Source of the DNA: Methanoculleus bourgensis MS2
GTDB taxonomy: Archaea > Halobacteriota > Methanomicrobia > Methanomicrobiales > Methanoculleaceae
DNA: 64,000 nucleotides
Direction: 5' to 3'
Assembly (NCBI RefSeq): GCF_000304355.2
Contig: NC_018227.2
Location: 2,108,001 to 2,172,000 of the forward strand
In this document: piece by piece, positions 37,071 through 64,000 of the stretch
Layout: each line of letters opens with the position of its first letter
How positions within the stretch are numbered: the first letter of the stretch is position 1
Made by a program: the position numbers and the translations under genes
The notes under the pieces: generated by a model
Database searches by the model: none
The model's input: only the letters and a program-made list of their open reading frames with translations
Told to the model about the DNA's origin: nothing

Positions 37071-37124
37071 CCGCCCCCGGATGTTAACGCCTCTCCCTGA
37101 ACTCCTCCGTCAAAAAAGGAAATT

Positions 37125-37135
37125 CCTATATCAAC
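37125..37135 (+). promoter_or_regulatory. Conserved TATA-type promoter of degT-1
   Basis: cctatatcaac lies 40 bases before the ATG. The same region before the second copy (55809) reads cctatattaac, and the surrounding words tcaaaaa before it and gaaag after it are also kept, although the rest of the two upstream regions differ. Conservation of only this part supports a real promoter. Confidence 0.6.
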
Positions 37136-37174
37136 ATAGGTGAAAGGATATTCACATCTTTCCCGGAGAATACT

Positions 37175-38257
37175 ATGCAGATACCCATCGCTCACCCTTC
37201 CCTCGGGAACGAGGAGAATACTGCTGTTCTCGCTGTTCTTGCCTCGGGCATGATCGCCCAGGGCCCGGAGACTGCTGCGTTTGAGGAAGAGTTCGCCGCC
37301 TACTGTGGTGTTCCCCACGCCGTCGCCACAAATAACGGGACCGCCGCCCTCCACGCGGCGTTGCTGGCCGCCGGGGTCGGGCCGGGCGACGAGGTGGTCG
37401 TCCCGGCGTTCACGTTCTTTGCGACGGCTTCAAGCGTCTCGATGTGCGGTGCCCGCCCGGTCTTTGCCGACGTCGATCCGGCGACCGCCACGATCGACCC
37501 GGCCGATATCCTCGCGAAGGTCAGCCCAACGACGAAGGCCGTGATCGCCGTCCACCTCTACGGCCAGCCCTGCGACGTCGGGGCGGTCCGGGAGGTCTGC
37601 GACGATAAGGATCTCGTCTTCATCGAGGACGCCGCCCAGGCTCACGGAGCCACCTACCGCGGGCAGAAGACCGGCAGCCTCGGCGACCTCGCCTGCTTCT
37701 CCTTCTACGCGACGAAGAACATGGCGACCGGGGAGGGGGGGATGGTGACGACGGGCTCGGATGAGTATGATGAGCGTCTTCGCCGGGTCATCAACCACGG
37801 CCAGAGCGAGAAGTACCTCCACACCGAGCTCGGCTACAACTACCGCATGACCGACATCAACGCCGCGATCGGCCGGGTGCAGCTTGCAAAACTCGACGGC
37901 TTCAACCGCCGCCGGCAGGAGAACGCCGCCTATTATAATACTCACATCACGGCGCCGGGGCTCGTGCTGCCGGCGGTCGCCCCCGGCCGGACCCATGTCT
38001 GGCACCAGTACTCCCTGCGGGTCACCGACGCCTTCCCCCTCTCTCGGGATGAGCTGATGGCCTACCTCCGCGAGCGCGGGATCGGCTGCGCTGTCCACTA
38101 TCCCGTAGCCCTCTCCCGGCAGCCCTTCTACGCCGGGGCTGCCTCCTGCCCGGTCGCCGAGTCGCTCGCGGCTTCGGTCCTCTCGATCCCGGTCCACCCC
38201 GGCGTCATCGACGAAGCCCGGGCCTACATCGCTGATACTATCAACGGGGTGGTCTAG
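37175..38257 (+). CDS. DegT/DnrJ/EryC1 sugar aminotransferase, copy 1
   Basis: 360 residues of the PLP-dependent sugar aminotransferase family. PLP Lys181 lies in FSFYATKNMATGEGG; other conserved parts are NGTAALHAALLA, PAFTFFATA, FIEDAAQAHGA and GYNYRMTDINAAIG. It should transfer an amino group from glutamate to a 3- or 4-keto nucleotide sugar. With the adjacent oxidoreductase it matches the WbpB/WbpE step that makes 3-amino-UDP-sugar uronic acids. About nine in ten residues match the copy at 55.9 kb. The oxidoreductase ATG follows the stop directly. After that gene the pathway breaks off here, unlike at the second locus. Confidence 0.92.
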   Translation: MQIPIAHPSLGNEENTAVLAVLASGMIAQGPETAAFEEEFAAYCGVPHAVATNNGTAALHAALLAAGVGPGDEVVVPAFTFFATASSVSMCGARPVFADVDPATATIDPADILAKVSPTTKAVIAVHLYGQPCDVGAVREVCDDKDLVFIEDAAQAHGATYRGQKTGSLGDLACFSFYATKNMATGEGGMVTTGSDEYDERLRRVINHGQSEKYLHTELGYNYRMTDINAAIGRVQLAKLDGFNRRRQENAAYYNTHITAPGLVLPAVAPGRTHVWHQYSLRVTDAFPLSRDELMAYLRERGIGCAVHYPVALSRQPFYAGAASCPVAESLAASVLSIPVHPGVIDEARAYIADTINGVV

Positions 38258-39172
38258 ATGGACGCAGGGGTCATCGGCGCCGGGACGGTTGGCAGGAACC
38301 ATGTCCGGGTCTACTCCGAGCTGAAAGAGGTCGGGACGACCTACGTCTACGACCTGAACACGACTGCCGCCGAAGAGGTCGCCGCGGCCACCGGGGCCGA
38401 GGTCTGCCGCTCGGCAGACGAACTCCTCCGGAAGGCCGAGTGCGTCTCGGTCTGTGTGCCGGCACACCACCACCTCCAGGCGGCGGGACCGGCGTTCGCC
38501 GCCGGGGTGCCTGCCCTCATCGAGAAACCCCTCTGCCTCACCACGCCTGAGTGCGAGCGCCTTCTTGAGCAGATCCCGGAAGGGCTGACCGTCGGTGTCG
38601 GCCAAATAGAGCGGTTCAACCCGATCGTCACCGAGATCGCGGGGATCGTGAAAGACCCCCTCTATGTCTCCTTCCACCGCCACAACCCGGCCCCGGCAGA
38701 GGTGGGCGGGAGTTCGGTCGTCGAGGACCTGATGATCCACGACATCGATATCGCATTCAACGTCTTCTTCCCCGGGCGGGAGTATACCGTCCACGCGAGC
38801 GGCACCGGGGACGTCGCCGCGGCCATCGCGACCTTCGGGCGGACGCCGGTCTACCTCTCGGCGTCCCGGAAGGCCTCAAAGAAGGTCCGGTCGGTCTACA
38901 TCGAGGAGGAGGACCGGACGATCGAGGGCAATTTCATGACCCAGGAGGTCTTTGTCTACAGGAAGCCCGAGGCCTACGGGCAGGCAGGGGGCCTCTACCG
39001 CCAGGAGAACGTCATCGAGAGCCTCCTCGTGAACAAGGTCGAGCCCCTGGCGATCGAACTTGCGACGTTCGTCCGGGCGGCCCGTGACGGAAAACCCTTC
39101 CCGGTGACCCCGGAGCAGGGACTCGGAAATGTCCGGGTCTGCGAGGCGATCTATCAGAGTCTCTCGGCATGA
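38258..39172 (+). CDS. Gfo/Idh/MocA oxidoreductase, copy 1 (WbpB-like)
   Basis: 304 residues with an N-terminal NAD-binding motif (GVIGAGTVGRNHVRVY), the family signature EKPLCLT, and a C-terminal substrate domain with VVEDLMIHDIDIAFN holding the catalytic His/Asp region. It should oxidise or reduce a nucleotide sugar at C3, feeding the aminotransferase encoded just before it. It is nearly identical to the copy at 56.9 kb. Bases 39173-39577 after it show no supported gene; short frames there look like eroded sequence. Confidence 0.9.
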   Translation: MDAGVIGAGTVGRNHVRVYSELKEVGTTYVYDLNTTAAEEVAAATGAEVCRSADELLRKAECVSVCVPAHHHLQAAGPAFAAGVPALIEKPLCLTTPECERLLEQIPEGLTVGVGQIERFNPIVTEIAGIVKDPLYVSFHRHNPAPAEVGGSSVVEDLMIHDIDIAFNVFFPGREYTVHASGTGDVAAAIATFGRTPVYLSASRKASKKVRSVYIEEEDRTIEGNFMTQEVFVYRKPEAYGQAGGLYRQENVIESLLVNKVEPLAIELATFVRAARDGKPFPVTPEQGLGNVRVCEAIYQSLSA

Positions 39173-39577
39173 GGGGGCTTTGCGCGGGTGGTCTCAGCGC
39201 CCACGGGCATGGGCGGTTTCATCTCGTCGGGGAAGTTGACCTCCTTTGGGGGCATCGCGGCTCGCTGGCAACTGCGTAGAGTATTTACGAGGCACATGGC
39301 CTGTGGCCGATACGGGCCCGGGTCTTCTGGGGGTATCCCCGATAGTATACCACCGTGGCACTGGCAGATTGCCGGGGACGGCCCCGGGCGCTCGCTTGTA
39401 GCAGAGGCCCCAAAACTGACCCTTCCTGGTCCCGTCATCGGAGCGGCCGGGGAAGGACTACAAGGGTTGACTGGTTCGCGGCCCTGCAGGAAGCGGCGGA
39501 CCATCTCCCGTTCAACCCCCGCGGGGTTCCTGCCTGGTGGGACGGAAATTCCTGGTGCGGAGGTGCCGGTCCACCTC

Positions 39578-39790: not shown

Positions 39791-40095
39791 GTAACGTGGC
39801 TGTACAGTCTAGGGCATACATAGTTTCGCTTTTGTCCTTTCAGGTTTGATCCCGGTATTCTTGAACTGAACGAGAACTCCTGGTCAAATCGTCGGGTGCG
39901 ACGCGAACCGGGGAATGACGATGCAGGGTTTCTGTAACCCCGGGAAAACCGCTCATGTTAACCCCCTGTGAACATCCTGATCTTCTCGGAGGCCTCAGGC
40001 GGTCAGCACCAGGATCGTCGGCGGTGATTGTGCGGGTGAAGAGGGGAGTGGTAGGCTTTTTCTTGCCCGTATAGGAACCTGGATAGACCGGATAC

Positions 40096-40300
40096 CCTGG
40101 TTCAATCCGGAAAGCGCTCAACCGGCCCATCCACATATCCATGCGCTCCATCGTCACCGGCGGGGCCGGCCCGGGCTCAGAACCCTGGAGATACAGCCAC
40201 ACCTTGACGGTGCTCAAGCTCCGTTTCGTTAGAAACGTCGCATTCATCACAGCACCACGACGTCGTCATCATCGACAACCTCGCCACCGGGACGGTCAGG
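40096..40300 (+). pseudogene. Epimerase gene 5' fragment E1
   Basis: The lead-in ggttcaatccggaaagcgct and the start atgcgctccatcgtcaccgg (40141) match the other fragments. After the glycine-rich MRSIVTGGAG the sequence is replaced by about 75 bases shared only with fragment E2 (ccctggagatacagccacac onward). It then returns to gacgtcgtcatcatcgacaa and stops at the ATG..LATG-equivalent region. It is a broken N-terminal piece of an NAD-dependent nucleotide-sugar epimerase. Confidence 0.7.
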
Positions 40301-44500: not shown

Positions 44501-44679
44501 CGTGCGCCGGGGGTCTTCCTGCTCGATGCCCGTCCGTGAGCCCGCGGAGAAAAAACCCTGTCAATTCTAACTCTAACAGGTAGCCAGGAGAGGTAGACCA
44601 GGGGATCCGTTTATCAGGTACTCGAACGCTCATCCTCTGGGCCAGTACTGGAACCGGGACAGACAGAAATCCCGGTTCA

Positions 44680-44957
44680 ATTCAGAAAGCCCTAAACCGG
44701 CACTCAACGTAACCTCTTCATGCGCTCCATCGTCACCGGCGGGGCCGGCCCGGGCTCAGAACCCTGGAGATACAGCCACACCTTGACGGTGCTCAAACTC
44801 TGTTTCTAACGAAACGTCGCATCTGGCACAGCACCACAACGTCGTCATCATCGAGAACCTCGCCATCGGGCGACGGACGAAGATCGAGCACCTCCCCGAT
44901 GGTGACGTTCATCGAGGGGAGCATCACCGACCTTGATCTCCTCAGGGATACGTGACG
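44680..44957 (+). pseudogene. Epimerase gene 5' fragment E2
   Basis: The lead-in cattcagaaagccctaaacc-type sequence (ttcagaaagccctaaaccgg, about 44691) is followed by atgcgctccatcgtcaccgg at 44719. The same roughly 75-base replacement as in E1 follows, then gtcgtcatcatcgagaacct and gtgacgttcatcgaggggag, ending near gatctcctcaggg. Frames are broken several times. Confidence 0.7.
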
Positions 44958-45023: not shown

Positions 45024-45459
45024 TCACTCCGGGAGGAGGCGGTCGCGGAGCATCGCCCGGACCAGATCACGGTACCGGTTCACGACTGGAAGGTCGTCCT
45101 GCAGCACCCCGTAGACCTCGTCCAGGTCCAGCCGGCAGTAGAGGTGGACCAGAACATTCCGAAAGCCCGCGAGGTCTGAGAGCTGGACGCTGAGGTCTTC
45201 CGGGATCAGCCCCTCGTCACAGAGGATCGCGAAACTCTCCCGGTAGGTCTCAGGCCGCCGGGAGCTGGAGGCCGCGATCAGGTGGTTCGCGATATCGATC
45301 GATGCCTGGATGCTGACAAGGAGTGCGTGCAGCACCATATTCCGCTTGTCCCTGTCGCCCCTCAGGTCTTCGAGGGTGATGGACCGGTAGCGTTCTATCG
45401 TCCCCGGCTGCCTCGTCCAGTTCCCGGAGGTGAGCGAGGATCCCTTCGTCCCTGACCAT
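45024..45459 (-). pseudogene. hepT: HepT toxin gene, frameshifted
   Basis: The N-terminal MVRDEGILAHLRELDEA (from ATG 45459) and the rest, from TIERYRSITLEDLRGDRDK through RNVLVHLYCRLD, lie in different frames. A single-base change near a C run at about 45402-45405 would join them into a normal protein of about 145 residues. The HEPN active motif R-x4-H-x-Y is intact (RNVLVHLY). HepT is an RNase toxin silenced by its partner MntA, which adds AMP to the Tyr. It starts 2 bp after mntA. Either the toxin is dead or the read has an error; a protein from an internal ATG (45338) would keep the active site. Confidence 0.78.
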
Positions 45460-45461
45460 TC

Positions 45462-45890
45462 TCAGACCCTCGTGAGCAGAACCCGGTCGAACCAGTCGAG
45501 CGTCTCTGCATAGTCAAGGTACAGGGAGAGCACGCCCGCCTCGTACCGGACCCTCCTCTCGTTATCGCGGGAGAATACGCGTCGGCCGCTCTTGATGACC
45601 TCGTACTGGAAAGAGACCGGGGCAGTGTTGAGGATCTTCACGTCGGCCTCAAAGCGGTAACCAAACCCTCGCTCGAGCTCCCGCTCGACCCTCGCGCGAA
45701 ACCGCATCGCCTGGTAGGGGGTGGGCTCCCCGGCGACGAGGATTGCCACGTCCACGTCACCGAAATCCCCCTGCGAGAACGAGCCGAAGACATACCCCAC
45801 CTCTATCTCGTCAAATCCGGCGAGGACCGTGCGGATGGTGCGGAGAACCTCTTCTTTCTCTTCCGCTTTCAGCAGGTGGCGCCGTCTCAT
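45462..45890 (-). CDS. mntA: MntA minimal nucleotidyltransferase antitoxin
   Basis: About 142 residues. The nucleotidyltransferase motif GSFSQGDFGDVDVAIL (GS...DxD) is intact, with a later Asp in FEADVKILN. MntA transfers AMP groups to the HepT toxin and blocks it. The start MRRRHLLKAEEKEEVL (ATG 45890) is favoured over 45917 because the extra residues are unconserved. It is upstream of hepT in a two-gene operon. Bases 45918-46310 beyond it show no gene. Confidence 0.87.
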   Translation of the reverse strand: MRRRHLLKAEEKEEVLRTIRTVLAGFDEIEVGYVFGSFSQGDFGDVDVAILVAGEPTPYQAMRFRARVERELERGFGYRFEADVKILNTAPVSFQYEVIKSGRRVFSRDNERRVRYEAGVLSLYLDYAETLDWFDRVLLTRV

Positions 45891-46310
45891 ATCGTTGTAT
45901 CGCTTCCCGCATCGCATATCATTCTTTCCCGCTTACCGGCAGATCCCCTCCTTCCCGTTGCAGGAGAGGGTCAGGCATCACTCATCGACAACTCAGCCTT
46001 CCTGACTGGTGCGTCTGTTGCGCCGGGACACCTTTTTGAGTGGTTTGGTCAGTGAGGCGGATCGCGTTCCCTGCCCGGGCCTTCGTCAACGACCTGAACG
46101 ACGCCGGGCGGGGGCTGTGGTTGCCGTTCACGATCAGCCCGGGCCTACGTCCGCCGGACACCCTGCCGGGGTTGCCGCGGGGCCTCGGGGTGGTGGTCTT
46201 TGTCGGGAGACCGGGGAGGGGGGAATACGAAAGGCCGGGCCCGGAAGTATCTGCTACAGGGGGCATTCCCGTAGCGGTTGTCACCCGGGCAGCCCGGGAG
46301 AACGCTCCGT

Positions 46311-49190
46311 TCACCGCACCCCCTCCCCTCTGTTCCACTCCCGCACCAGCCGGGCGTAGCACTGATCGCAGATATTCGTCTGCACTTCCCGGGAGCGGTA
46401 GATCGCCTTTTTTGCTCCGCAGACATCACACCGGCCGAGTTCGGTCTTCACCCGCTCAAACGTCCGGTGATCCAGCACCCCGGGGAGCGGCTGCACCTTC
46501 GCCGGCCGCTTTGCCTTCGTGAGGCAGTCATAGCAGAGGTACTCCCCGCCGCCGCCCCGTTTCACGGAGGATGTCGGCCGCCGGCCGCAGACATGACAGG
46601 GTTCGTCCTTTGCCACCGGGAGGGCGATGGAGTCGCGGGGGTTCACCGGTGGTGGAGAGTGACAGCAGGTTTCAGCACGTTGACAGCAGGTGCTGTCAAT
46701 GAGTGGGCGAAGAACCTGCGAGGTTTCCCGATTTTGCTCGTGATCCGGGACGTTCTCATGTTGAGTGACAGCAACGTCGGAAACACGGGCACCCCCATCG
46801 TCACTGCGAGTCGCCTCGTGCGTGCTCTCCGTTCCTTCATTCTGCTGTACATGTGTGTGATCATAGGGATGAATATCCTCATGTTGAGGGGCGTCTTTGG
46901 AATGATCGCCTTTACGGGCGTTTTCTCGTTGACAGCAACTGCTGTCACTCTGCTGAAACCTGCTGTCATTGCTGTCAACATCCGGGTCATCATCCAGCCA
47001 GACAAACGTTCCCCCGCTCCAGGCCCGGTAGACCTCATTATCAAACGTGAAGAACTGCTCCCGGCGGCGGACCGTGATACCGGCCCCGCCGTCCTCCGTC
47101 ACGCTGGCATCGTAGAGGCTGATCGCCGGGCACTTCTCCAGGAGGCCGGAGTAGGTCGTTCCCCGGCTCACGTAGCCCTGGAGGATCCGCCGGGTCTTCT
47201 GGTAGGAGAGGCCGAGAGCGCTCTGGAGCCCCCGGACGGTGAAGACCTCGACCCCCATTCTCGCGACCGTCGCGAGCGCTGCCGCCTCGTTCTTGGTGAG
47301 TTTGGTCTCCTGGCCCCCGGCAGCCCCGGAGAGGGCGGAGTAGAGTTTTGCTGCCGCCCAGAAATCCTCCTCCCGGGCGACCACCGCCCCGTCCTCGTCG
47401 CGGTCCCGCTGCAGGTAGAAGAGCCGGGCATGGCACTTGATCAGGTCAAAGAGCATGCCGGGGTTCCGGCGGTTCTGGGTTGTGGAGAACTCTATCCGCC
47501 GGGCAAACGGGATCCAGACCGGGAGGGTCTCTTCTTTGACCGCTTCCCAGATCGCTCTCGCGACGAGAATGTCGTCGTCCGCCGGATCCCGGCCGGCCGC
47601 CTCCCGCTCTTTCATGTGCGCAAGCACCCGTTTGTCCTGCTCGACCGAGTCGTCGATCCAGACCGTCAGCATCCGGTTCATCACCTGGTCGTCGCCCATG
47701 TCCTCGACCTTGGCGAGCCACCAGACACAGCGGGCCGGGATGGTGCAGACCCGGAGTTTGCGCTCGGTCGTGAGGGTCCGGTGCTCGATCGGTTCCCGGA
47801 AGTTCGTGGTCGCGGACTTGAGCACCTCCTGGAGGTCGTCGGAGAGTGCAACATCGTCGAAGAGGAGGACGGTGCCGGCCTGGAGGTCGTCGTCGTAGTA
47901 GAGCGCCTTATCCGAGACGGTGCCTTTGAGTCTGTAGGCCTCCGGGATGAGGTTCTGCATCGTCGTGCAGGCATGGGTCTTGCCTTTGCCTGAGTTGCCG
48001 GAGATGGCGACGTGGAGGCCGTTTGTGTTCTCGACCGACTGCGAGGCGATGGACATCGCGAGAGACTCCGCGACGGTTCGGTCGCCGACGTGGGTTTTGT
48101 TGAAGGTGTCAAGGAGGAAGGCAAGCGGGTCGCCGTGCTGCAGGATCGCGAGGGCACGGTCGTGGTACTCGTCGGGAGGAGGGGTGGGGGTCTCCTCCTG
48201 CTTCCGGGTCGGCTTCGGCTCATACATCGCCCGGAGTTCGGGCCACCGCTGCGCCCCCCCGCCGCAACTTTGGTGGTGGCAGCCGGCGAAGATGGCGCCG
48301 TTCGCAAACTGGATGGCAAATGCGCCGTCCTTGTGCGCCCCCGAGAACGGGCACTCATCGAGGACGTAGAGGGTCCCGCCCTGCCAGGGCCTCGTCGACC
48401 GGACGGCAAGCCCGTGCTCCGCAAGCCAGCGGGCGAGGTCGATGCCGGAGGACTTCTTCGGAGGCTCGTCCTTCGGGAGGAGCTCTGCGAGGTGCCGGAG
48501 CCGCTCCAGCGGAACGATCTCCATCTCCGGTGGAACAGAGAGAACCTTCGCCCGCCGGTGGGGGCGTTCCGGGGTGGAATCGCCCTTCCGGGACATGGTA
48601 CCGTAGAGTTTCCAGATCCGGGCGGCGTTGTAGTTCGCGGTATCGACCGTGATTGTGTCGTTTGAGAAGAGGGCGTCGAGGGTCGCAAGAACCCCCTTCA
48701 CGACCTCCGTCGCGGCCTCGTCGTTTGCGAGGTCGATCCTGTACAGAAGGTGCGCCCCATTCCCGGAGTCGGCCCGGAGGGGTTCAGGGAACCCCTGCTC
48801 GGTGAGGTAGGCCGCGATCCGCCCGGCGGCGTCAAGCGCCGCTGCGTGCTCCGCGTCCGTCGACGAGACCCCGCTCGGCCGGACCGGGTCGATGTCGACC
48901 GGGAGCCAGCGGCGGCCGAGGATGTCGGCGTCAGCCGTGGTCGCATCCTTCCGCGATAGCCGCATCTTGATCCGGTTCGCCCGCCGGGCGAGCAGGCTTG
49001 GGTTCACAGTATTGAGCGTAACGTAAATCCCCGCAACCGCAGGATCGGCATCAAGCGCCTCGACAGCCCGGGCAAGCGCCTCATGGTCATCGAAGTAGCC
49101 CGAGTGCGTCGCACCGTCGGCGAGCGCCCGGACCTCGACCACCCCGCCGGGAGCAAGAACCCCCACCGCCCGGCGGATCTCATCACTCAT
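46311..49190 (-). CDS. Virus/plasmid-type primase-helicase replication protein
   Basis: 959 residues. The N-terminal third resembles archaeo-eukaryotic primase-polymerases of mobile elements (PVDIDPVR, GNGAHLLYRIDL and DTANYNAARIWKLYGTMSRK). A Cys/His cluster follows (DECPFSGAHKDG, GCHHQSCGGG), then a helicase ATPase: Walker A SGNSGKGKTHA (about 398), Walker B VLLFDDVALS. A winged-helix segment and a long polar linker lead to two C-terminal zinc motifs (CHVCGRR...CYDC and CDVCGAKK...CDQC). It should prime and unwind the element's own DNA. It overlaps the small gene upstream by 4 bp and is in a set with an Orc1/Cdc6 gene. The linker is coded by DNA carrying iteron-like repeats. Confidence 0.8.
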   Translation of the reverse strand: MSDEIRRAVGVLAPGGVVEVRALADGATHSGYFDDHEALARAVEALDADPAVAGIYVTLNTVNPSLLARRANRIKMRLSRKDATTADADILGRRWLPVDIDPVRPSGVSSTDAEHAAALDAAGRIAAYLTEQGFPEPLRADSGNGAHLLYRIDLANDEAATEVVKGVLATLDALFSNDTITVDTANYNAARIWKLYGTMSRKGDSTPERPHRRAKVLSVPPEMEIVPLERLRHLAELLPKDEPPKKSSGIDLARWLAEHGLAVRSTRPWQGGTLYVLDECPFSGAHKDGAFAIQFANGAIFAGCHHQSCGGGAQRWPELRAMYEPKPTRKQEETPTPPPDEYHDRALAILQHGDPLAFLLDTFNKTHVGDRTVAESLAMSIASQSVENTNGLHVAISGNSGKGKTHACTTMQNLIPEAYRLKGTVSDKALYYDDDLQAGTVLLFDDVALSDDLQEVLKSATTNFREPIEHRTLTTERKLRVCTIPARCVWWLAKVEDMGDDQVMNRMLTVWIDDSVEQDKRVLAHMKEREAAGRDPADDDILVARAIWEAVKEETLPVWIPFARRIEFSTTQNRRNPGMLFDLIKCHARLFYLQRDRDEDGAVVAREEDFWAAAKLYSALSGAAGGQETKLTKNEAAALATVARMGVEVFTVRGLQSALGLSYQKTRRILQGYVSRGTTYSGLLEKCPAISLYDASVTEDGGAGITVRRREQFFTFDNEVYRAWSGGTFVWLDDDPDVDSNDSRFQQSDSSCCQRENARKGDHSKDAPQHEDIHPYDHTHVQQNEGTESTHEATRSDDGGARVSDVAVTQHENVPDHEQNRETSQVLRPLIDSTCCQRAETCCHSPPPVNPRDSIALPVAKDEPCHVCGRRPTSSVKRGGGGEYLCYDCLTKAKRPAKVQPLPGVLDHRTFERVKTELGRCDVCGAKKAIYRSREVQTNICDQCYARLVREWNRGEGVR
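46660..46977. repeat. Iteron-like tgacagca cluster inside the primase gene
   Basis: The word tgacagca or its complement tgctgtca occurs at 46660, 46681, 46691, 46766, 46930, 46940, 46961 and 46970: four direct and four inverted. They form two groups about 250 bases apart, each containing inverted pairs. They encode polar and Cys-containing residues of the primase linker (for example SSCCQREN and STCCQRAETCC). Confidence 0.7.
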
Positions 49191-49991: not shown

Positions 49992-51152
49992 TCAGCCTTT
50001 CCGGGGGCATCCCGGAGACTGATCCCCCGGCCCGCCCCGGGCACACGCCGCAAAGACCTCGTCGGGAGCGTAGCGGAGGAAGACCTCATACCCCTTCCCG
50101 GTGTGGAGGAGGTCGATGATCCCGGCATCAGCGAGCCTTCGTAACCGGGCATGGTAGGTCGTCTTCCCGACGGCGAGGTAGTCCTGCACCTCCTCAAAGA
50201 CCGCCCCCGCCATCATCTCGGCCCCGGAGAGCGACTGTTCCGCGATCCGGTAGAGCAGCGCCCGTTCGCCGGAGGAGAGCCCCGTGGTCCGGGCGGCAAG
50301 CGCCGGCGACCCGACCCCGGCGACCACGTCCATGACATCCTTCCGGGTGACCCGGCGGCGGCTGTCCCCCTCGGCCTGCAGGCACGCTTGCCGGAGGAGA
50401 GCGATCCCGACCCGGACATCCTGCTCGCCGGCGGTCATCTCCACGACAAGGTCGAGGACCGTCGCCGGCACCACTCCCGGGTAGAGCCCCTGCCGGACCC
50501 GGTCGCTGAGGATCCCCCGGATCTCGGTCTTCGTGTAGGGCCAGAAGTTGACCTCGGTGGGGTGGAAGACCGACCGCACCGGCCCGTCGGCCTCGGCGTA
50601 GAGGTTCAGGGCGAGATCGCTTGTGACCGCAAAGACCCCGGCACCCCGGAGGTCGCTCCACCCCTCGTAGAGCCGGAGGAGCTGGTAGAGGAGGACATTG
50701 TAGGTTCCCGCCGCGATGAGGTAGTCTGCGTCATCGAGGCAGACCAGGAGTCTTGCGTCTCTCTCCCTGAGCCGGGCGGCGATCACCTCCCTGACATCAT
50801 CAAGGTGCCGTGATGGGGGTGCGTAACCGGAGAGGTGCCTGGAGATGCACCGGTAGACCGCGAGCAGGGTATGGTCCTGCCGGCAGTTGACGTAGACCGG
50901 GACGACCCTCCGGGTCTCCGCCGCAACCTCGGCAAAGACCCGGCGGACCGTGGTGGTCTTCCCGGTCCCGGGCGGGCCGCGGAGGATGGCGTTCATCGGG
51001 CTTGCGCCCCGGAGGGCCGGCCTGATGAGGAAGGCAAGTTCCCTGACCTGGGCGTCGCGGTGGTGGAGGTGCTCGGGGGTGTACGTAGATTCAAAGACCT
51101 CAGGATCCCGAAAGAGGGTCTGGTCGGAGCGAAGAAGTGAAGAATACCTCAT
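49992..51152 (-). CDS. Orc1/Cdc6-family replication initiator
   Basis: 386 residues. AAA+ domain with Walker A RGPPGTGKTTTVRR (about 58-71), Walker B LLVCLDDADYL, sensor-like VFAVTSDLALNLY, and an Orc1/Cdc6 arm (VNFWPYTKTEIRGILSDRV). The C-terminal winged helix (DYLAVGKTTYHARLRRLADA) should bind origin DNA. Archaeal Orc1/Cdc6 proteins load the MCM helicase; divergent copies such as this are typical of plasmids and integrated elements. The iteron-like cluster at 53.05-53.37 kb is a candidate binding region. ATG at 51152 follows an A/T-poor region with no obvious box. Confidence 0.9.
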   Translation of the reverse strand: MRYSSLLRSDQTLFRDPEVFESTYTPEHLHHRDAQVRELAFLIRPALRGASPMNAILRGPPGTGKTTTVRRVFAEVAAETRRVVPVYVNCRQDHTLLAVYRCISRHLSGYAPPSRHLDDVREVIAARLRERDARLLVCLDDADYLIAAGTYNVLLYQLLRLYEGWSDLRGAGVFAVTSDLALNLYAEADGPVRSVFHPTEVNFWPYTKTEIRGILSDRVRQGLYPGVVPATVLDLVVEMTAGEQDVRVGIALLRQACLQAEGDSRRRVTRKDVMDVVAGVGSPALAARTTGLSSGERALLYRIAEQSLSGAEMMAGAVFEEVQDYLAVGKTTYHARLRRLADAGIIDLLHTGKGYEVFLRYAPDEVFAACARGGPGDQSPGCPRKG

Positions 51153-52041: not shown

Positions 52042-52224
52042 ATGAAATCAGATATTGAGGTTATCAAAGAGGGAGTGACAGAAATAAGGAATATGCTTGA
52101 CGAGCTGATGCGCCAGCATGAAACCATTGGAATGATGAAGTTATCTGAGCGCTCCCTGCAAGAATTTCTTGAGGCCGAACCAGATATCTATACCCTTGAC
52201 GATGCGAAGGTCGTGTACCTGTGA
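52042..52224 (+). CDS. Antitoxin of a MazF-type pair
   Basis: 60 residues, acidic and helical (MKSDIEVIKEGVTEIRNMLDELM), ending LDDAKVVYL. A gaggaatt site precedes the ATG by 7 bases. It overlaps the toxin start by 4 bp (gtga). It lacks a recognisable AbrB or ribbon-helix DNA-binding motif, so repression through the palindrome upstream may need a partner or another domain type. Identified as antitoxin by position and size. Confidence 0.72.
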   Translation: MKSDIEVIKEGVTEIRNMLDELMRQHETIGMMKLSERSLQEFLEAEPDIYTLDDAKVVYL

Positions 52225-52550
52225 AAGGAAAGATTGTCCTCATTCCATTTCCCTTTACCGATCTGACATCTTCAAAGCTTCGTCCTGCCCTCGTCCTCTA
52301 CCAGGGGAAGTATGATCTCATTCTCGCGTTCATCTCATCTCAAACCCGACCTCAAACAACTGAAGCTGAGATCCATGTCCGGAAGGGTATGCCAGGATTT
52401 GAAAACTCGGGGCTAAAGGTGGATTCAGTGATCAGATTGGACAAAATAGCTACTGTTTTGAAGGATCTGGTTATCGCGGAACTTGGTGAGCTTGATGCAC
52501 ACTCTAGAGAGAGTGTCAACAAGAAACTCTGTGCATTATTTCAAATTTAA
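52221..52550 (+). CDS. MazF/PemK-family toxin (mRNA interferase)
   Basis: 109 residues. Family features: VLIPFPFTDLTSSKLRPALV at the N-terminus (with the conserved RPALV), FISSQ, GLKVDSVIRLDKIATV and the C-terminal helix. MazF toxins cut mRNA at short sites. GTG at 52221 overlaps the antitoxin stop. Composition is less GC-rich than the neighbouring chromosome, consistent with transfer as a cassette. Both genes look intact. Confidence 0.87.
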   Translation: MKGKIVLIPFPFTDLTSSKLRPALVLYQGKYDLILAFISSQTRPQTTEAEIHVRKGMPGFENSGLKVDSVIRLDKIATVLKDLVIAELGELDAHSRESVNKKLCALFQI

Positions 52551-53046: not shown

Positions 53047-53371
53047 TTTGCACCTGTTTGCACCTCGTTTGCACCTCGTTTGCACCTATCTTTGCACCAG
53101 AACGAACCTGTTATTGTGCTTGATTTCCGGATCTGCCGGCAGAGATTGGGTATCGTCGCGACGTTTGCACCAGGACGGATTTCACAGGCACCCGGGGCCG
53201 GGCCACCCGCCCCTGCAGGAAGGCTCTCCGTTCCTGGTGCAAATGGTGCAAATGACTACTCTGATCAGTACCTATCTCTCTCTATCTACCTCCTATGGAA
53301 CAATCCTCACCGTCCCTGCCAGCATCTTTGTTTGCACTTTTCCCGAAATTCCGGTGCAAACCTGGTGCAAA
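53047..53371. repeat. Iteron-like tttgcacc cluster, candidate replicon origin
   Basis: Five direct tttgcacc copies start at 53047, 53057, 53068, 53079 and 53091, spaced 10-12 bases, about one helical turn. Further copies lie at 53164 and 53331 (tttgcact), and inverted copies (ggtgcaaa) at 53236, 53245, 53353 and 53364. In total there are 11 words in 325 bases. The stretch has no gene. It lies within the same accessory block as the Orc1/Cdc6 and primase genes. Confidence 0.72.
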
Positions 53372-53423
53372 GGTGTAAGCATGATTGCGGGAGGATTTCT
53401 GGTCCCGCCCCATCAACACCATT

Positions 53424-53842
53424 CAGAAAGCCCTAAACCGGCACTCAACGTAAACTCTTCATGCGCTCCATCGTCACCGGCGGGGCCGGCTTCATCGGGT
53501 CAAACCTTGCAGACACCTTAGCACAACATCACGACGTCGTCATCATCGATAACCTCGCCACCGGCCGGCGGGAGAAGATCGAGTACCTCCTCGCCCACCC
53601 CCGGGTGACGTTCATCGAGGGGAGCATCACCGACCTTGACCTCCTGATGGAGACCTTCCCGGGCGCGGACGGCATCTTCGGCGGCGATCCCGTCCGTGCC
53701 CCGGTCGGTGAAGAACCCCCTCGCCTCGAACGAGGCGAACGTGACCGGCACGGTGAGTGTCCTCGTGGCGGCGAAGGACTGCGGGGTACCGGCCGCGGTT
53801 GCGGCGTCCTCGGTTTACGGCGACACCCCACCTGATTCAGAG
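53424..53842 (+). pseudogene. Epimerase gene fragment E3 (best preserved 5' part)
   Basis: After the shared lead-in cattcagaaagccctaaacc, ATG at 53461 opens MRSIVTGGAGFIGSNLADTL and runs in frame through DVVIIDNLATGRR and VTFIEGSITDLDLLMETFPG, a normal epimerase N-terminus with the NAD-binding GGAGFIGS. After GADGIF the frame breaks; the later bases can still be read as NPLASNEANVTGTVSVLVAA and SSVYGDTP in other frames. It stops near 53842. Bases 53843-54490 hold decayed sequence related to 44.1 kb and no supported gene. Confidence 0.8.
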
Positions 53843-54506
53843 CGATGATCGATCTGGATCTCCTGATCCGCTACAGGTGGTAGTTACATCGCCGGATCGT
53901 AGCGGTGACAGAACGCCCACACTTGCGCCCAGTCCCGGGCACGGGATCGACATTCCTGGCTTTCGCGAGCGCTTTGAGATGCTCGTAGCGGGTTGTCCTC
54001 CCGACCTGAAGGCAGTCCCACGATGGCTGTCCGCAATTGTCCGGATGCGAGTATCGGGATCGGGGGCAGATTCCCGGATTTCTGGAGGTTTTATCTTCGC
54101 GGGGTTGCAGGGGCGGAGCGGGAAGACCCCGCCCAACAGGTGCAGGGATGCAAGCGGAGCTGCCCTTCCCGTCATACGTTTCGAGGCGATCTATTGTTTC
54201 TTCTCTCCCTTCTGAATAAAGAGTGTCTGTGTTGCGAGAACCAGGCAACCGGAACACGCAATCTGCTGTAGGGTCGGAACGGCCCGAACAGGGTAATCAA
54301 CGCCTGTGGAGATCGGGTACGTCCCTCCGGGGCGGGGTAGTTCACCCTAGAAGGAATCCAGTCTCCCGGAGATCGTCCGGTATACGCAATTTACAGGGAC
54401 ATTTTCCGGCTGAATTCCACCGGGATGAGTGAATGGTGCATGGGAATGAGAGGGTCTCACGCCTACCTCACAAAGTATATCCCCTTGAAGGGCAGACACC
54501 ATGTGT

Positions 54507-55005: not shown

Positions 55006-55220
55006 AGTATTTTTCTCCAGAAAATCTTTGTAACCAGTATACTACCGTATCCCGTGTCTCCCATAGAATACCGTCGGTTTTGTATTCGGAAAAACGTTCT
55101 TGGAATCCCGCGATGACGATTCAGACGCAAGCCAGGCAAGCGGGAAAGACAACCTGGAACCCCACTCATTATCGAGCGCCATGGCACATCCGAGGGCTGA
55201 ACGGACTGTCTCGCTGGCAC

Positions 55221-55640
55221 CATTCAGAAAGCCCTAAACCACCCCACCGCCATAACCTCTTCATGCGCTACATCGTCACCGGCGGGGCCGGCTTGGCTCA
55301 AACCTTGCAGACACCTTAGCTCAAAACCACGACGTCGTCATCATCGACAACCTCGCTACCGGGCGGCGGGAGAACATCGAGCACCTCCTCGACCACCCCC
55401 GGGTGACGTTCATCGAGGGGAGTATCACCGACCTTGATCTTTTGATGAGACCTTCCACGGCGCGGACGGCATCCTGGCCATCCCCTCGGTGCCCCGGTCG
55501 GTGATAGAGCCCCCTCGCCTCGAACGAGGCGAACGTGACCGGCACCGTGAGTGTGCTCGTGGCGGCAAAGGACTGTGGGGTGCCGGCCGTCGTCGCCGCC
55601 TCTGTCTACGGCGACACCCCTCTTCCGGGATCGTGAAACG
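55221..55640 (+). pseudogene. Epimerase gene fragment E4
   Basis: The lead-in cattcagaaagccctaaacc precedes ATG at 55264 (MRYIVTGGAG). A small deletion at ggcttggctcaaacc breaks the frame in the NAD-binding motif. The rest follows E3 closely: gacgtcgtcatcatcgacaa, gtgacgttcatcgaggggag, cctcgcctcgaacgaggcga and gtctacggcgacacccctct. Several further frame breaks. It ends about 170 bases before the second aminotransferase promoter. Confidence 0.78.
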
Positions 55641-55808
55641 TTCGGGTTCACGTCCGTCCTCCACCACCCACCGGAGGTGAAGAACACCGGGCATCACCCC
55701 GGAACCTAAGTACCCGCCAGACCGCTGCCCATATACGCTCTCCATCCCCACTCCATTCCAGGGAGCGTTAAGGATTTCTACATAACTTTTCCATCAAAAA
55801 TGCAAACT

Positions 55809-55820
55809 CCTATATTAACA
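55809..55820 (+). promoter_or_regulatory. Conserved TATA-type promoter of degT-2
   Basis: cctatattaaca matches the element before degT-1 (37125) and lies about 45-56 bases before the ATG at 55865. The flanking tcaaaaa and gaaag words are also shared. Confidence 0.6.
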
Positions 55821-55864
55821 TAAGCGAAAGAAACATGACATCTGCTTCCGGAGTTGGAAATTCC

Positions 55865-56947
55865 ATGCACATCCCTATCGCCCAACCTTCCCTCGGAAAC
55901 GAGGAGAACGATGCTGTTCTCGCCGTCCTCGCCTCGGGCATGATCGCCCAGGGCCCGGAGACCGCCGCCTTTGAGGAAGAGTTCGCCGCCTACTGCGGCG
56001 TCCCCCACGCCGTTGCCGTCTCGAACGGGACCACCGCCCTCCACGCGGCGCTGCTCGCCGCCGGGGTCGGGCCGGGCGACGAGGTGGTCGTCCCGGCGTT
56101 CACGTTCTTTGCGACGGCGTCCGCGGTCTCGATGTCTGGGGCGGTGCCCGTCTTTGCCGACGTCGATCCGGCGACCGCCACAATCGACCCGGCTGATATC
56201 CTCGCAAAGGTTAGCCCAAAGACAAAGGCCGTGATCGCCGTCCACCTCTACGGCCAGCCCTGCGACGCCGCGGCGGTCAACAAGATCTGCGATGCTCGGG
56301 ACCTCGTCTTCATCGAGGACGCCGCCCAGGCCCACGGCGCGGAGTATCACGGGACACGGACGGGGGCGCTCGGCGACCTCGCCTGCTTCTCCTTCTACGC
56401 GACGAAGAACATGGCGACCGGGGAAGGGGGGATGGTGACGACGGGCTCGGATGAGTATGACGCCCGCCTCCGCCGGGTCATCAACCACGGCCAGAGCGAG
56501 AAGTACCTCCATACGGAGCTCGGCTACAACTACCGCATGACCGACATCAACGCCGCGATCGGGAGGGTGCAGCTCGCGAAACTCGACGGCTTCAACCGCC
56601 GCCGGCAGGAGAACGCTGCCTATTATAATGCTCACATCACGGCGCCGGGGCTCGTGCTCCCCTCGGTCGCGCCCGGCCGGACCCATGTCTGGCACCAGTA
56701 CTCCCTGCGGCTCACCGACGCGTTCCCCCTCTCCCGGGACGAGCTGATGGCCCACCTCCGCGAGCGCGGGATCGGCTGCGCCGTCCATTACCCGGTCGCC
56801 CTCTCCCGGCAGCCCTTCTACGCCGGGGCTGCCTCCTGCCCGGTCGCCGAGTCGCTCGCGGCCTCGGTCCTCTCGATCCCGGTCCACCCAGGGGTTACCG
56901 ATGAGGCGCGGGCTTACATCGCCGACGCCATCAACGGGGTGGTCTAA
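55865..56947 (+). CDS. DegT/DnrJ/EryC1 sugar aminotransferase, copy 2 (WbpE-like)
   Basis: 360 residues, same motifs as copy 1 (FSFYATKNMATGEGG with PLP Lys181 and GYNYRMTDINAAIG). Differences from copy 1 by eye are about 29 positions, clustered in residues 50-165. ATG at 55865 aligns with copy 1; the in-frame ATG at 55835 adds ten residues not present there. It overlaps the next gene by one base (TAATG). With the three genes downstream it forms the more complete of the two sugar operons. Confidence 0.93.
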   Translation: MHIPIAQPSLGNEENDAVLAVLASGMIAQGPETAAFEEEFAAYCGVPHAVAVSNGTTALHAALLAAGVGPGDEVVVPAFTFFATASAVSMSGAVPVFADVDPATATIDPADILAKVSPKTKAVIAVHLYGQPCDAAAVNKICDARDLVFIEDAAQAHGAEYHGTRTGALGDLACFSFYATKNMATGEGGMVTTGSDEYDARLRRVINHGQSEKYLHTELGYNYRMTDINAAIGRVQLAKLDGFNRRRQENAAYYNAHITAPGLVLPSVAPGRTHVWHQYSLRLTDAFPLSRDELMAHLRERGIGCAVHYPVALSRQPFYAGAASCPVAESLAASVLSIPVHPGVTDEARAYIADAINGVV

Positions 56948-57861
56948 TGGACGCGGGCGTCATCGGCACCGGGACGATGGGCAAAAACCACGTCCGGGTC
57001 TACTCGGAGCTCAAGGAGGTCGGGGCGACCTACGTCTACGACCTGAACACGAAGGCCGCCGAAGAGGTCGCCGCCGCCACCGGGGCCGAGGTCTGCCGCT
57101 CGATGGAGGAACTCCTCGCGAAAGCCGGGTGCGTCTCGGTCGTGGTCCCGACCCCCTACCACCTCCGGACAGCGGGGGAGGTCATCGCCGCCGGGGTGCA
57201 CGCCCTGATCGAGAAGCCCCTCTGCCTCACCGTGCGCGAGTGCGAGCAGCTGATCGGGCAGATCCCGGAGGGGCTGACCGTCGGTGTCGGGCAGATCGAG
57301 CGGTTCAACCCGGTCGTCGCCGAAGTCGCAAGGATTGTAGAGGATCCCCTCTACGTCTCCTTCCACCGGCACAACCCGGCCTCGGCACGGGTGACCGGGA
57401 GTTCCGTCGTCGAGGACCTGATGATCCACGACATCGACATCGCGTTCAACGTCCTCTTCCCCGAGCGGGAGTGTACCCTCCACGCCAGCGGGACCGGGGA
57501 CGTCGCCGCGGCCCTTATGTCCTTCGGGCGGACACCGGTCTACCTCTCGGCCTCCCGCAAGGCCTCGAAGAAGGTCCGGTCAATCTACATCGAGGAGGAG
57601 GACCGGACGATCGAGGGCGACTTCATGACCCAGGAGGTCTATGTCTACAGGAAGCCCGAAGCCTACGGGCAGGAGAACGGGCTCTACCGCCAGGAGAACA
57701 TCATCGAGAAACTCCTGGTGAACAAGGTCGAGCCCTTGAAGATCGAACTCGCGACGTTTGTCCGGGCCGCCCGCGACGGGAAACCCTTCCCGGTGACGCC
57801 GGAGCAGGGGCTCGGAAACGTCCGGATCTGCGAGGCGATCTACCGGGGCCTCTCGGCATGA
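56947..57861 (+). CDS. Gfo/Idh/MocA oxidoreductase, copy 2 (WbpB-like)
   Basis: 304 residues, with GVIGTGTMGKNHVRVY as NAD site, EKPLCLTV, and VVEDLMIHDIDIAFN. Closely matches copy 1. It should act with the aminotransferase to convert a UDP-GlcNAc uronate to the 3-amino form. Overlaps both neighbours (TAATG before, ATGA after), so all three genes are translationally coupled. Confidence 0.92.
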   Translation: MDAGVIGTGTMGKNHVRVYSELKEVGATYVYDLNTKAAEEVAAATGAEVCRSMEELLAKAGCVSVVVPTPYHLRTAGEVIAAGVHALIEKPLCLTVRECEQLIGQIPEGLTVGVGQIERFNPVVAEVARIVEDPLYVSFHRHNPASARVTGSSVVEDLMIHDIDIAFNVLFPERECTLHASGTGDVAAALMSFGRTPVYLSASRKASKKVRSIYIEEEDRTIEGDFMTQEVYVYRKPEAYGQENGLYRQENIIEKLLVNKVEPLKIELATFVRAARDGKPFPVTPEQGLGNVRICEAIYRGLSA

Positions 57862-58916
57862 AGGTCCTCTCGGTCGTCGGGGCCCGGCCCCAGTTCATCA
57901 AGTGCGCTCCTGTCTCCCGGGAACTCCGGGAGGTGCACGAAGAGGTCCTCGTCCACACCGGGCAGCACTATGACTATGGGCTGTCCGAGGTCTTCTTCCG
58001 CGACCTCGGGATCCCGGAACCCGACTACCACCTCGATATCGGCTCGGGGAGCCACGGCGTCCAGACCGGCCGGATGCTCGCCGCGGTCGAGGAAGTGATC
58101 GCCAGGGAGGAGCCGGACCTCGTCCTCGTCTACGGGGACACGAACTCGACCCTTGCGGGAGCGCTCGCGGCGGCAAAGGTGCACGTGCCGGTGGTGCATG
58201 TCGAGGCCGGGCTCCGGAGTTTTGACCGCCGGATGCCCGAGGAGGTGAACCGGGTCCTGACGGATCATTGCTCGGACCTCCTCTTCTGCCCGACGGCGAC
58301 CGCGGTTGCGAACCTCGCGGCCGAGGGGGTCACCGCGGGCGTCCACCTCACCGGGGACGTGATGGTCGACGCGCTCCGGGAGAACATGACTCTTGCAGAG
58401 GAGCGCTCCACGGCTCTTACCGATCTTGGGCTCTCCCGGAAGGGGTACTACCTTGCCACGGTCCACCGTGCGGGGAACACCGATGATCCGACCGCGCTCG
58501 GCGCGATCCTGGAGGCTTTTTCCCGCCTCAACGCTCCGGTGGTCTTCCCGGCTCATCCCAGGACCCGGAAGATGCTTGGCATGTATGGGCTTGAGCCCGC
58601 GGAGAACGTCAGCGTTGTTGAACCGCTCCCCTACTTTGATATGCTCACCCTCCTTGCCGGCGCCCAGGCGGTCCTCACCGACTCCGGCGGCGTCCAGAAG
58701 GAGGCCTACATCCTCAAGGTGCCGTGCGTGACCCTGCGGGAGAACACCGAGTGGGTCGAGACCCTGGAGGACGGCTGGAACGTCCTGGTGGGTGCGGACC
58801 CGGACCGGATCGTCGCCGAGGCAGAGCGGGGCGGCGGCGGCCGGCACTCAGCCCGGTTCGGCGACGGGCATGCTGCAGAGAGGATCGCCGCGATCATCAG
58901 AGAATATGAACCCTGA
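57858..58916 (+). CDS. wecB: UDP-N-acetylglucosamine 2-epimerase (WecB/WbpI type)
   Basis: 352 residues. Motifs: VVGARPQFIKCAPV, HTGQHYDYGLSEVFF, VYGDTNSTLAGALAA, HVEAGLRSFDRRMPEE, NRVLTDHCSD, and DSGGVQKEAYIL with CVTLRENTEWVET. It interconverts UDP-GlcNAc and UDP-ManNAc, or, given the operon, UDP-GlcNAc3NAcA and its manno form (WbpI). Sequence alone does not decide between these. ATG at 57858 overlaps the preceding TGA. A second copy of its last 70 bases lies at 60219, marking a duplication. Confidence 0.93.
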   Translation: MKVLSVVGARPQFIKCAPVSRELREVHEEVLVHTGQHYDYGLSEVFFRDLGIPEPDYHLDIGSGSHGVQTGRMLAAVEEVIAREEPDLVLVYGDTNSTLAGALAAAKVHVPVVHVEAGLRSFDRRMPEEVNRVLTDHCSDLLFCPTATAVANLAAEGVTAGVHLTGDVMVDALRENMTLAEERSTALTDLGLSRKGYYLATVHRAGNTDDPTALGAILEAFSRLNAPVVFPAHPRTRKMLGMYGLEPAENVSVVEPLPYFDMLTLLAGAQAVLTDSGGVQKEAYILKVPCVTLRENTEWVETLEDGWNVLVGADPDRIVAEAERGGGGRHSARFGDGHAAERIAAIIREYEP

Positions 58917-61956: not shown

Positions 61957-62060
61957 TCAGACGTCACACCGGCCGAGTTCGACCTTCGCCCGGGTAAACG
62001 TCCGGTGGTCGAGGGCTCCGGGCAGAGACTCTTGCAACACAGGCCCACGCTTTGCACCTG
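61957..62060 (-). pseudogene. Primase-helicase 3' remnant of a second replicon
   Basis: The minus strand encodes LPGALDHRTFTRAKVELGRC, matching LPGVLDHRTFERVKTELGRC near the C-terminus of the primase at 46.3 kb. Just before it, another frame reads LQRAENRCK, comparable to CQRAETCC of the intact primase. A stop follows GRCDV. The rest up to 62480 shows scattered gttgcaac- and tttgcacc-type words and no gene. Confidence 0.72.
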
Positions 62061-62508
62061 TTTTCAGCGCGTTGCAGCCGGTGATGCCACTCCAAGGGTT
62101 GCTTTGAGGCGTTCGATCCTGATTTCCACCCCTTGATGGTAGTATCGTGAGATCTTTTCCGGCATTCCGGATTTCGCACACACCCGCACATCCATCCACC
62201 CCGGCACCGGTACCGGAGGCTGTGTGCGTGTTCTGCTGTACTTCAGTACTAAGAGAGAGAGGCATCTCTCTATCTGTACAAGTACTGCCGGATCCGGCGC
62301 CTTCCCCGGCCGTTCGATCTTCGCGGCCGGTGCTGGAATCCTGCGGTAAACCTGCTGCAACGTTGCAACGCGCACCTCCGGTGCTCGACCTCCGTTCCTG
62401 CGGAACATCGCAACCATCGGTGCTCCCGCTCCGGCCCGGAGCCCGTCGCGAGCTGTAATCGTCGGACTTGGGTTTGATAACCTATTGTCCTCTGGGAGGG
62501 TTACCAGG

Positions 62509-63792: not shown

Positions 63793-64000
63793 CATTCAGA
63801 AAGCACTTATCAGAGGCACCACCATAAATTCTTCATACACTACATCGTCACCGGCGGGGCGGGTGAACATCGAGCACCTCCTGGACCACCCCCGGGTGAC
63901 GTTCATCGAGGGGAGCACCATCAGGTGCGACTCCTTCCCGGGCGCGGGCGGCATCTTCCACCAGACGGCCATCCCCTCCGTGTTCCGAGCGATCGGGAGT
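63793..64000 (+). pseudogene. Epimerase gene fragment E5 (runs off window)
   Basis: The lead-in cattcagaaagcacttatca is followed by an imperfect start region (tacactacatcgtcaccggc) and ggcggggcgggt. A deletion then joins directly to gaacatcgagcacctcctgg, gtgacgttcatcgaggggag and ggcatcttccaccagacggc. The start codon region is damaged, so it is a relic unless the remainder outside the window differs. Bases 63630-63792 show no gene. Confidence 0.75.

Follow-up and report, generated by a model that had tools for sequence, protein, structure and literature searches.

The closest described relatives of the system analysed here are the primase-polymerases of arCOG07809 (Mpal_2033), which are found in small integrated archaeal elements (Makarova et al. 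2014, PMC4158269). An origin lying inside an initiator gene is known from bacteriophage lambda, where the iterons are situated within gene O (PMC6022878, PMC7466680). We analysed a window of 64,000 nucleotides (64 kb; positions 2,108,001 to 2,172,000 of contig NC_018227.2) from Methanoculleus bourgensis MS2, an archaeal genome consisting of a single contig of 2,789,774 bases. The window holds an integrated element with a gene for a primase-helicase initiator (P0001), and inside this gene lies an array of TGACAGCA words that is probably bound by the encoded protein.

The window protein very probably belongs to the arCOG07809 family, a placement based solely on its domain order and on the order of its hosts. 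As described for that family, primase, helicase, helix-turn-helix (HTH) and zinc finger are united in one protein, in an order that fits our models and motifs, and the genes reside in small integrative elements with an integrase in Methanomicrobiales hosts. The helicase, however, is assigned to superfamily I in the available text, whereas it is modelled here as MCM-like AAA+ (PMC4158269). In that text 'origin of replication' has 0 occurrences, and its arCOG07809 passages mention no array. Like lambda, the locus has an initiator gene that contains iterons arranged in dyad symmetry. According to the portions at hand, lambda has an adjacent AT-rich region and extra iterons lengthen its protein; its iterons are 18-bp inverted repeats, whereas here an archaeal primase-helicase gene holds arrays of ~320 nt whose clusters keep a conserved distance (PMC6022878, PMC7466680). 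The plasmid replication protein ORF904 of pRN1 likewise combines primase, helicase and winged helix-turn-helix (wHTH), but the excerpted account gives it a superfamily 3 (SF3) helicase and a stem-loop origin downstream of the gene, with sequence-specific sites reported as unidentified (PMC4234260). Within the open literature searched, which leaves most subscription journals outside its coverage, arCOG07809 appears in one paper only and no report of this array was found. The protein family is already known and so is, from lambda, the intragenic origin; the origin role proposed here is putative. Lambda O is not known to be a helicase or a primase.

The first-pass annotation of this DNA had reported eight tgacagca words, four direct and four inverted, in 320 bases of the primase linker, and this proved correct. 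TGACAGCA occurs eight times in the window, four times per strand and always within 46660-46977, against a mean of 0.95 and a largest count of 3 in 100 dinucleotide shuffles. No second cluster exists within the 64-kb window, and the genome-wide total is 61 copies (2.79 Mb). Many copies of one word therefore lie within the initiator's own coding sequence, at the following positions:

46660-46667, plus strand: word TGACAGCA, exact
46681-46688, plus strand: word TGACAGCA, exact, left half of the dyad 46681-46698
46691-46698, minus strand: word TGACAGCA, exact, right half of the dyad 46681-46698
46766-46773, plus strand: word TGACAGCA, exact, central
46843-46850, minus strand: degenerate ninth site, reading TGCTGTAC on the plus strand, at the conserved 87/77-nt position
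46930-46937, plus strand: word TGACAGCA, exact, left half of the dyad 46930-46947
46940-46947, minus strand: word TGACAGCA, exact, right half of the dyad 46930-46947
46961-46968, minus strand: word TGACAGCA, exact
46970-46977, minus strand: word TGACAGCA, exact

Read on the coding strand, the order is three reverse words and one forward, a distance of 164, one forward, a distance of 74, and then one reverse and two forward. The ninth site (TGCTGTAC) is separated by 87 and 77 nt from the words on either side, which is the spacing found in distant relatives. The dyad TGACAGCANNTGCTGTCA has two occurrences in the whole genome, both in this array. Two arms of 44 nt (46660-46703 and 46925-46968) are 89% complementary, and the two clusters are near inverted copies of each other. 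The GC content of the linker reaches its minimum of 0.48 near 46850.

The same annotation had proposed that the words are kept by selection at the DNA level, and several results support this. When 378 nt of the linker were shuffled 500 times with synonymous codons, preserving the protein and drawing on the gene's own codon use, the best 8-mer count averaged 2.31 and in no trial reached the 7 observed (p=0.002). The eight words encode D-S (four), C-C (three) and A-V (one), in two frame offsets and both orientations. As one word is read as three different dipeptides, it is the DNA and not the peptide that is repeated; together with the frame offsets and the two orientations, this variety means that codon bias and a peptide repeat both fail as explanations of the words. 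Further support comes from control windows in related genes, from a spacing that is kept while the word changes, and from arrays that are still intact where the gene is gone.

Relatives of the window protein are present in 32 of 40 family genomes and in 139 of 232 genomes of the order; 80 related loci were named, from Methanoculleus and other Methanomicrobiales. For 92 of 98 rows, those with linkers of at least 150 nt, linkers were compared with control windows of the same length from the same genes. Four or more copies of one 8-mer were found in 54 of the 92 linkers but in just 1 of 345 control windows, and 51 linkers exceeded their codon shuffles at p<0.02 (5 of 345 control windows). The arrays occupy the homologous place in the linker across Methanomicrobiales and fall into about a dozen word classes: the phenomenon is order-wide. 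Besides TGACAGCA, the word set includes TGGCAGCA, TTGCAGCA, TGTACAGCA, GGTGCAAA, GGTGTAAA, GGTGTACA and GTTGCAAA, with TTACAGCA, TTTCAGCA, CTTCAGCA and CTTCCGCA in Methanoregula and Methanolinea and TGCAGGCA and others elsewhere. In close relatives all copies have changed in concert, from GAC to GGC in every word, and relatives with other words keep a linker of the same length.

For a wider set, 145 distinct relative proteins were collected, and dropping 14 linkers shorter than 200 nt and 4 longer than 700 nt left 127. The long ones include L072 and L074, which are rich in words; their linkers have expanded in tandem while staying in frame and hold 17 and 14 copies of TGACAGCA, respectively. 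A further candidate, CGGAGAGC as a conserved central box, was rejected: just 15 of 131 linkers have it, mostly in one subclade, as do some stand-alone arrays. No full-length relative was seen in 22 viral contigs, 2 phage records or 5 plasmid records. Some open frames of ~370 aa have no more in common with the primase than its C-terminal Zn-ribbon part (e.g. G005:C4:21165-21485, G023:C240 and G004:C26).

Spacing is conserved even where the word is not. Of the 127 linkers, 57 hold at least five copies of a 7-mer. In 35 of these, two copies in the same orientation stand 163-167 nt apart (7.3 expected), and in 45 they do so at 8-12 nt (11.5 expected); opposite-orientation pairs occur at 77-81 nt in 26 (10.7 expected), at 73-76 nt in 26 (8.8 expected) and at 84-88 nt in 21 (10.3 expected), the expectations being from random positions and ignoring relatedness. 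The 87/78/74 pattern is also present in Methanoregula proteins that are ~48% identical to the window's and use a different word. In all 57 linkers GC is lower than in the rest of the gene, and no discrete AT tract was seen.

The gene and the regions of its product are as follows:

46311-49190, minus strand: primase-helicase initiator gene P0001, open frame of 959 aa
48471-49190, minus strand: N-terminal AEP-type primase region, residues 1-240, named from the arCOG07809 literature and N-terminal matches in phage records H1/H2
47325-48173, minus strand: MCM-like AAA+ helicase region, residues 340-622 (Foldseek, VIA-align)
47043-47294, minus strand: wHTH, residues 633-716 (AlphaFold models)
47196-47201, minus strand: codons for Q664-K665, where the recognition helix 663-671 begins (column scans)
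46653-46976, minus strand: disordered linker, residues 739-846 (pLDDT under 50)
46314-46643, minus strand: C-terminal Zn-ribbon-like region, residues 850-959 (conserved cysteines and model elements; Pfam matches below cut-off only)

The best reading of the predicted model (AlphaFold, built from 51 sequences; mean pLDDT, the predicted local distance difference test score, 76) is an AEP primase/MCM-like helicase with a wHTH. The AEP-type primase at the N-terminus is putative, since its name comes with the family placement described above. For the helicase, the top Foldseek matches are MCM (E 2e-10), and in VIA-align residues 248-629 adopt the fold of MCM replicative helicases such as 6mii and 8x7u (Z 22.6, root-mean-square deviation 3.2, 273 aligned). 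Identity to these is low (~14%), and the helicase differs from them in being joined to a primase domain and to a wHTH specific to the element. The wHTH model gives generic winged-helix matches only: its top VIA-align score is Z 8.9, against a wHTH regulator, and its Foldseek matches are weak (E 0.024 at best). A Pfam search of the window protein returned no family above cut-off, and a search of PDB sequences with alignment A1 returned nothing at E up to 0.1. Rep proteins of Methanothermobacter plasmids, which we take to be of the pME2001 type, align with residues 354-686 (23%), leaving the primase domain outside the match. In the models the recognition helix 663-671 belongs to the wHTH directly N-terminal of the linker, and ordered domains flank one long disordered stretch, residues 739-846. 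This stretch (46653-46976) and the word array (46660-46977) overlap almost to the base.

The first-pass annotation had suggested comparing the word with the initiator's DNA-binding residues across related linkers. The two covary at residues 664-665. Between 8 proteins with TGACAGCA and 7 close relatives that have other words, columns 664 (Q vs Y) and 665 (K vs Q) are the sole perfect separators among 734, and residues 666-735, between helix and linker, fail to separate the two groups. In a scan of 730 columns over 79 rows, for which no column was singled out beforehand, residue 664 shares 0.748 of 0.938 bits of mutual information with one word base (runner-up 0.339), and the runner-up column by excess over shuffles is 665. 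The scan comprises those of the 127 linkers with z of at least 2; the other 48 were left out, including the non-fitting L046 and L085. Where residue 664 is H or Y, the word base after TG is C in 44 of 45 rows; where it is Q, this holds for 0 of 16. The remaining 18 of the 79 rows have none of these three residues there and fall outside this rule.

On a tree of residues 1-640 (59 rows, built with a 'quick' method) there are 13 word-class changes and 12 residue-class changes. Of seven independent pairs on well-supported branches, six change together, none changes in opposite directions and one shows no difference (p 0.031); an earlier tree of 21 rows, over which the word classes are scattered, contained one such pair on supported branches and had no power. 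A crude partial Mantel test on whole-word similarity (48 strong linkers with sufficient backbone) is less favourable: the helix window 660-671 is positive at r 0.19, a value matched by 1 of 999 permutations, but windows in the C-terminal helicase score higher. The earlier idea that each replicon evolved its own specificity is supported by about a dozen word classes that track the recognition helix of the wHTH. From these patterns we strongly infer that the wHTH binds the word.

On sequence evidence we consider it quite probable that the array is a binding platform for the protein of its own gene, most likely as the replication origin of the integrated element. The wHTH (633-716) would recognise the 8-bp word with residues 664-665, in the first turn of the recognition helix, as the covariation suggests. 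Several copies of the protein may then occupy the two dyad clusters, which lie ~250 bp from each other and enclose the central sites. Two MCM-like helicase rings could assemble there and open the lower-GC centre, after which the primase would start synthesis in both directions. Coding for a disordered linker would leave word and spacing almost free of protein constraint; hence each lineage could keep a matched pair of helix and word, a cause that the observed covariation is consistent with.

Several observations weigh against this proposal. Related linkers overall do carry repeats, in numbers that codon bias alone does not give, yet 41 of the 92 miss p<0.02 with exact 8-mers, including all three of the other copies in this genome, L033, L034 and L035, in which TGCAA is in excess. 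The label used for the column scans, the base following TG, was chosen after inspecting the words. The rule at 664 is broken by L046 (YYQ with GGTGTACA) and by L073/L065 (YYQ, mixed words). Low GC in the linker also follows from linker composition. The best Mantel windows, 602-613 and 497-508 (r 0.41 and 0.40), beat the helix window; as they lie in the C-terminal helicase, co-inheritance of the C-terminal half contributes and the modules travel together. Finally, 13 of 50 pairs of co-resident elements have the same helix core, against 5.0 in permutations; if incompatibility forced such elements to differ in specificity, this sharing should be rare, and the idea found no support.

The most serious competitor, though an unlikely one, is that the initiator binds the array for copy control, pairing, partition or autoregulation, with the true origin elsewhere in the element. 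It draws on the same helix-word covariation as the origin does, the array sits towards the gene's 3' end, and complete copies persist without an initiator, as a control locus might. The essential origin of pRN1, moreover, is in the text available a stem-loop downstream of the gene (PMC4234260). Yet the window holds no other cluster of the word, and the helicase-coupled DNA-binding domain, the dyad symmetry and the lower-GC centre better suit an origin.

That another protein reads the words, for example the neighbouring Orc1/Cdc6 encoded at 49992-51152, is very improbable. Such a gene is near the primase in just 23 of 98 rows, and no Cdc6 column separates the word groups (8 vs 3 sequences) whereas primase columns 664 and 665 do; Cdc6 as the reader found no support. 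There is a similarly slim chance that helix and word move as one recombining cassette, so that their association would need no binding. Both the scattering of word classes over the backbone tree and the correlation of C-terminal helicase windows with word similarity would agree with this. Residues 666-735 would travel in the same cassette, however, yet only 664 and 665 separate the groups, and concentration on one residue of a recognition helix is unexpected from hitchhiking. Least credible is an artefact of coding or repetition (a peptide repeat, codon bias or a transposon-like inverted-repeat insertion): the 44-nt arms do resemble terminal inverted repeats, but the synonymous shuffles and three dipeptides contradict it, and a mobile insertion was rejected because the dyad has no further genomic copies and relatives keep same-length linkers with other words.

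Returning to the array as a platform for its own initiator, we also found arrays without the gene. The earlier annotation had counted the primase array as a second one; the first is probably that at 53047-53371, where a primase linker with a broken frame, resembling L045 (47-49%), holds ten exact GGTGCAAA words. The rest of this primase gene is missing, and a Cdc6 remnant follows at 53907-54134. A second gene-less array of this genome is located at 977.4-977.75 kb. Both align in register with the L045 and L067 linkers, with broken frames, and similarity stops just past the last word. The primase remnant noted before at 62 kb is real (61960-62454, a C-terminal part matching the L034/L035 type at E 1e-44 to 2e-45), and the words given for it, tgcaac/tgcaaag, are roughly right, with five copies of TGCAAC and one of TGCAAAG.

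Among the family genomes, the pattern GGTGCAAAN{0,20}GGTGCAAA occurs in 12 of 40 and TGACAGCANNTGCTGTCA in 17 of 40, against 0 for reversed control patterns in every genome listed. Among 20 places examined, complete gene-less arrays of 7 to 10 words were found at L319, L321, L322, L329, L332 and L334, none of which is at a contig end. In tblastn searches (E up to 1e-4) these six loci show no primase or helicase part within 5 to 11 kb, and no wHTH part except a 29% match inside an L321 array. The stand-alone arrays of L317, L325, L326 and L330 sit at contig ends and were not counted as decisive. L322 has the spacing of the window (9, 21, 10, 163, 75, 10, 11, ...) and stops in all six frames. 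Its words are identical to the window's at 64 of 64 positions, against 59% for the intervening sequence; as stand-alone arrays were found by word patterns, word identity is partly due to selection, and with the 32 discovery bases removed the difference gives a Fisher p of 2e-7. L321 and L322 have ten words, compared with eight in the window's gene, and at L321:1064-1888 two stand-alone arrays are adjacent, one of ten TGACAGCA and one of eight GGTGCAAA. Half arrays, in which 4-6 TGACAGCA words are spaced 9, 21, 10 as in a single cluster, were seen at L318:4131-4179 and 7177-7225, L315, L316 and L320; the genomes concerned have no intact TGACAGCA element among the family-genome relatives.

The stand-alone arrays could reflect recent decay of once-functional linkers or a function without the gene. 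It is conceivable, though on balance doubtful, that we are dealing with order-wide replicons that have their origin in the linker of their own primase-helicase and a one-residue code, with the stand-alone arrays as trans-acting satellites or as decoys against matching elements; some of these arrays stand beside an integration site, and they would use or block the initiator in trans. A parallel, from the text at hand, is that ectopic lambda origins block the phage (PMC4488673).

For a family that is published but functionally blank, these results predict a DNA word per initiator, a deciding residue and an origin site. Natural relatives already form a swap pair (QK/TGACAGCA vs YQ/TGGCAGCA), with which one could test directly in archaea how initiator and origin co-evolve and how new replicon specificities arise. 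The words also provide a way to search methanogen sequences for autonomous and stand-alone arrays.

The surroundings of the gene point to an integrated element with these features:

49992-51152, minus strand: Orc1/Cdc6-type protein, upstream of the primase in the same orientation (TIGR02928, 190.1 bits, cut-off 181.3)
44680-44951, plus strand: left att-like direct repeat, 5' fragment of an epimerase gene (284-column match to 53421-53654, 70.4%, E 2e-40)
53421-53654, plus strand: right att-like direct repeat, epimerase 5' fragment (repeat match; epimerase match of 53461-53835)

Fragments of the epimerase 5' end occur at 40065-40291, 44641-44951, 53417-53829, 55214-55620 and 63793-63982, as if the epimerase gene had served repeatedly for integration. 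Those at 44.68 and 53.42 kb stand on either side of the primase and Orc1/Cdc6 genes in the manner of attachment repeats. The same fragment abuts GGTGCAAA stand-alone arrays at 53 kb of the window and at L329, L330, L334 and L287/L297. Of 98 rows, 22 have a tyrosine integrase close to the primase, small integrative elements with an integrase being the carriers; none was recognised in the window's own element. Beside the element lie a HepT-like/Polbeta nucleotidyltransferase pair and a PemK/MazF-like toxin (45024-45338, 45462-45917 and 52221-52550). A direct repeat of 2.08 kb (87%), part of a duplicated region, is found at 37100-39175 and 55784-57864; its genes are presumably aminotransferase-like and oxidoreductase-like. 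A dispersed repeat of ~50-200 bp has many direct copies, 73-93% alike, near 1030, 4000, 8110, 14990, 21950, 22560, 34250 and 36690.

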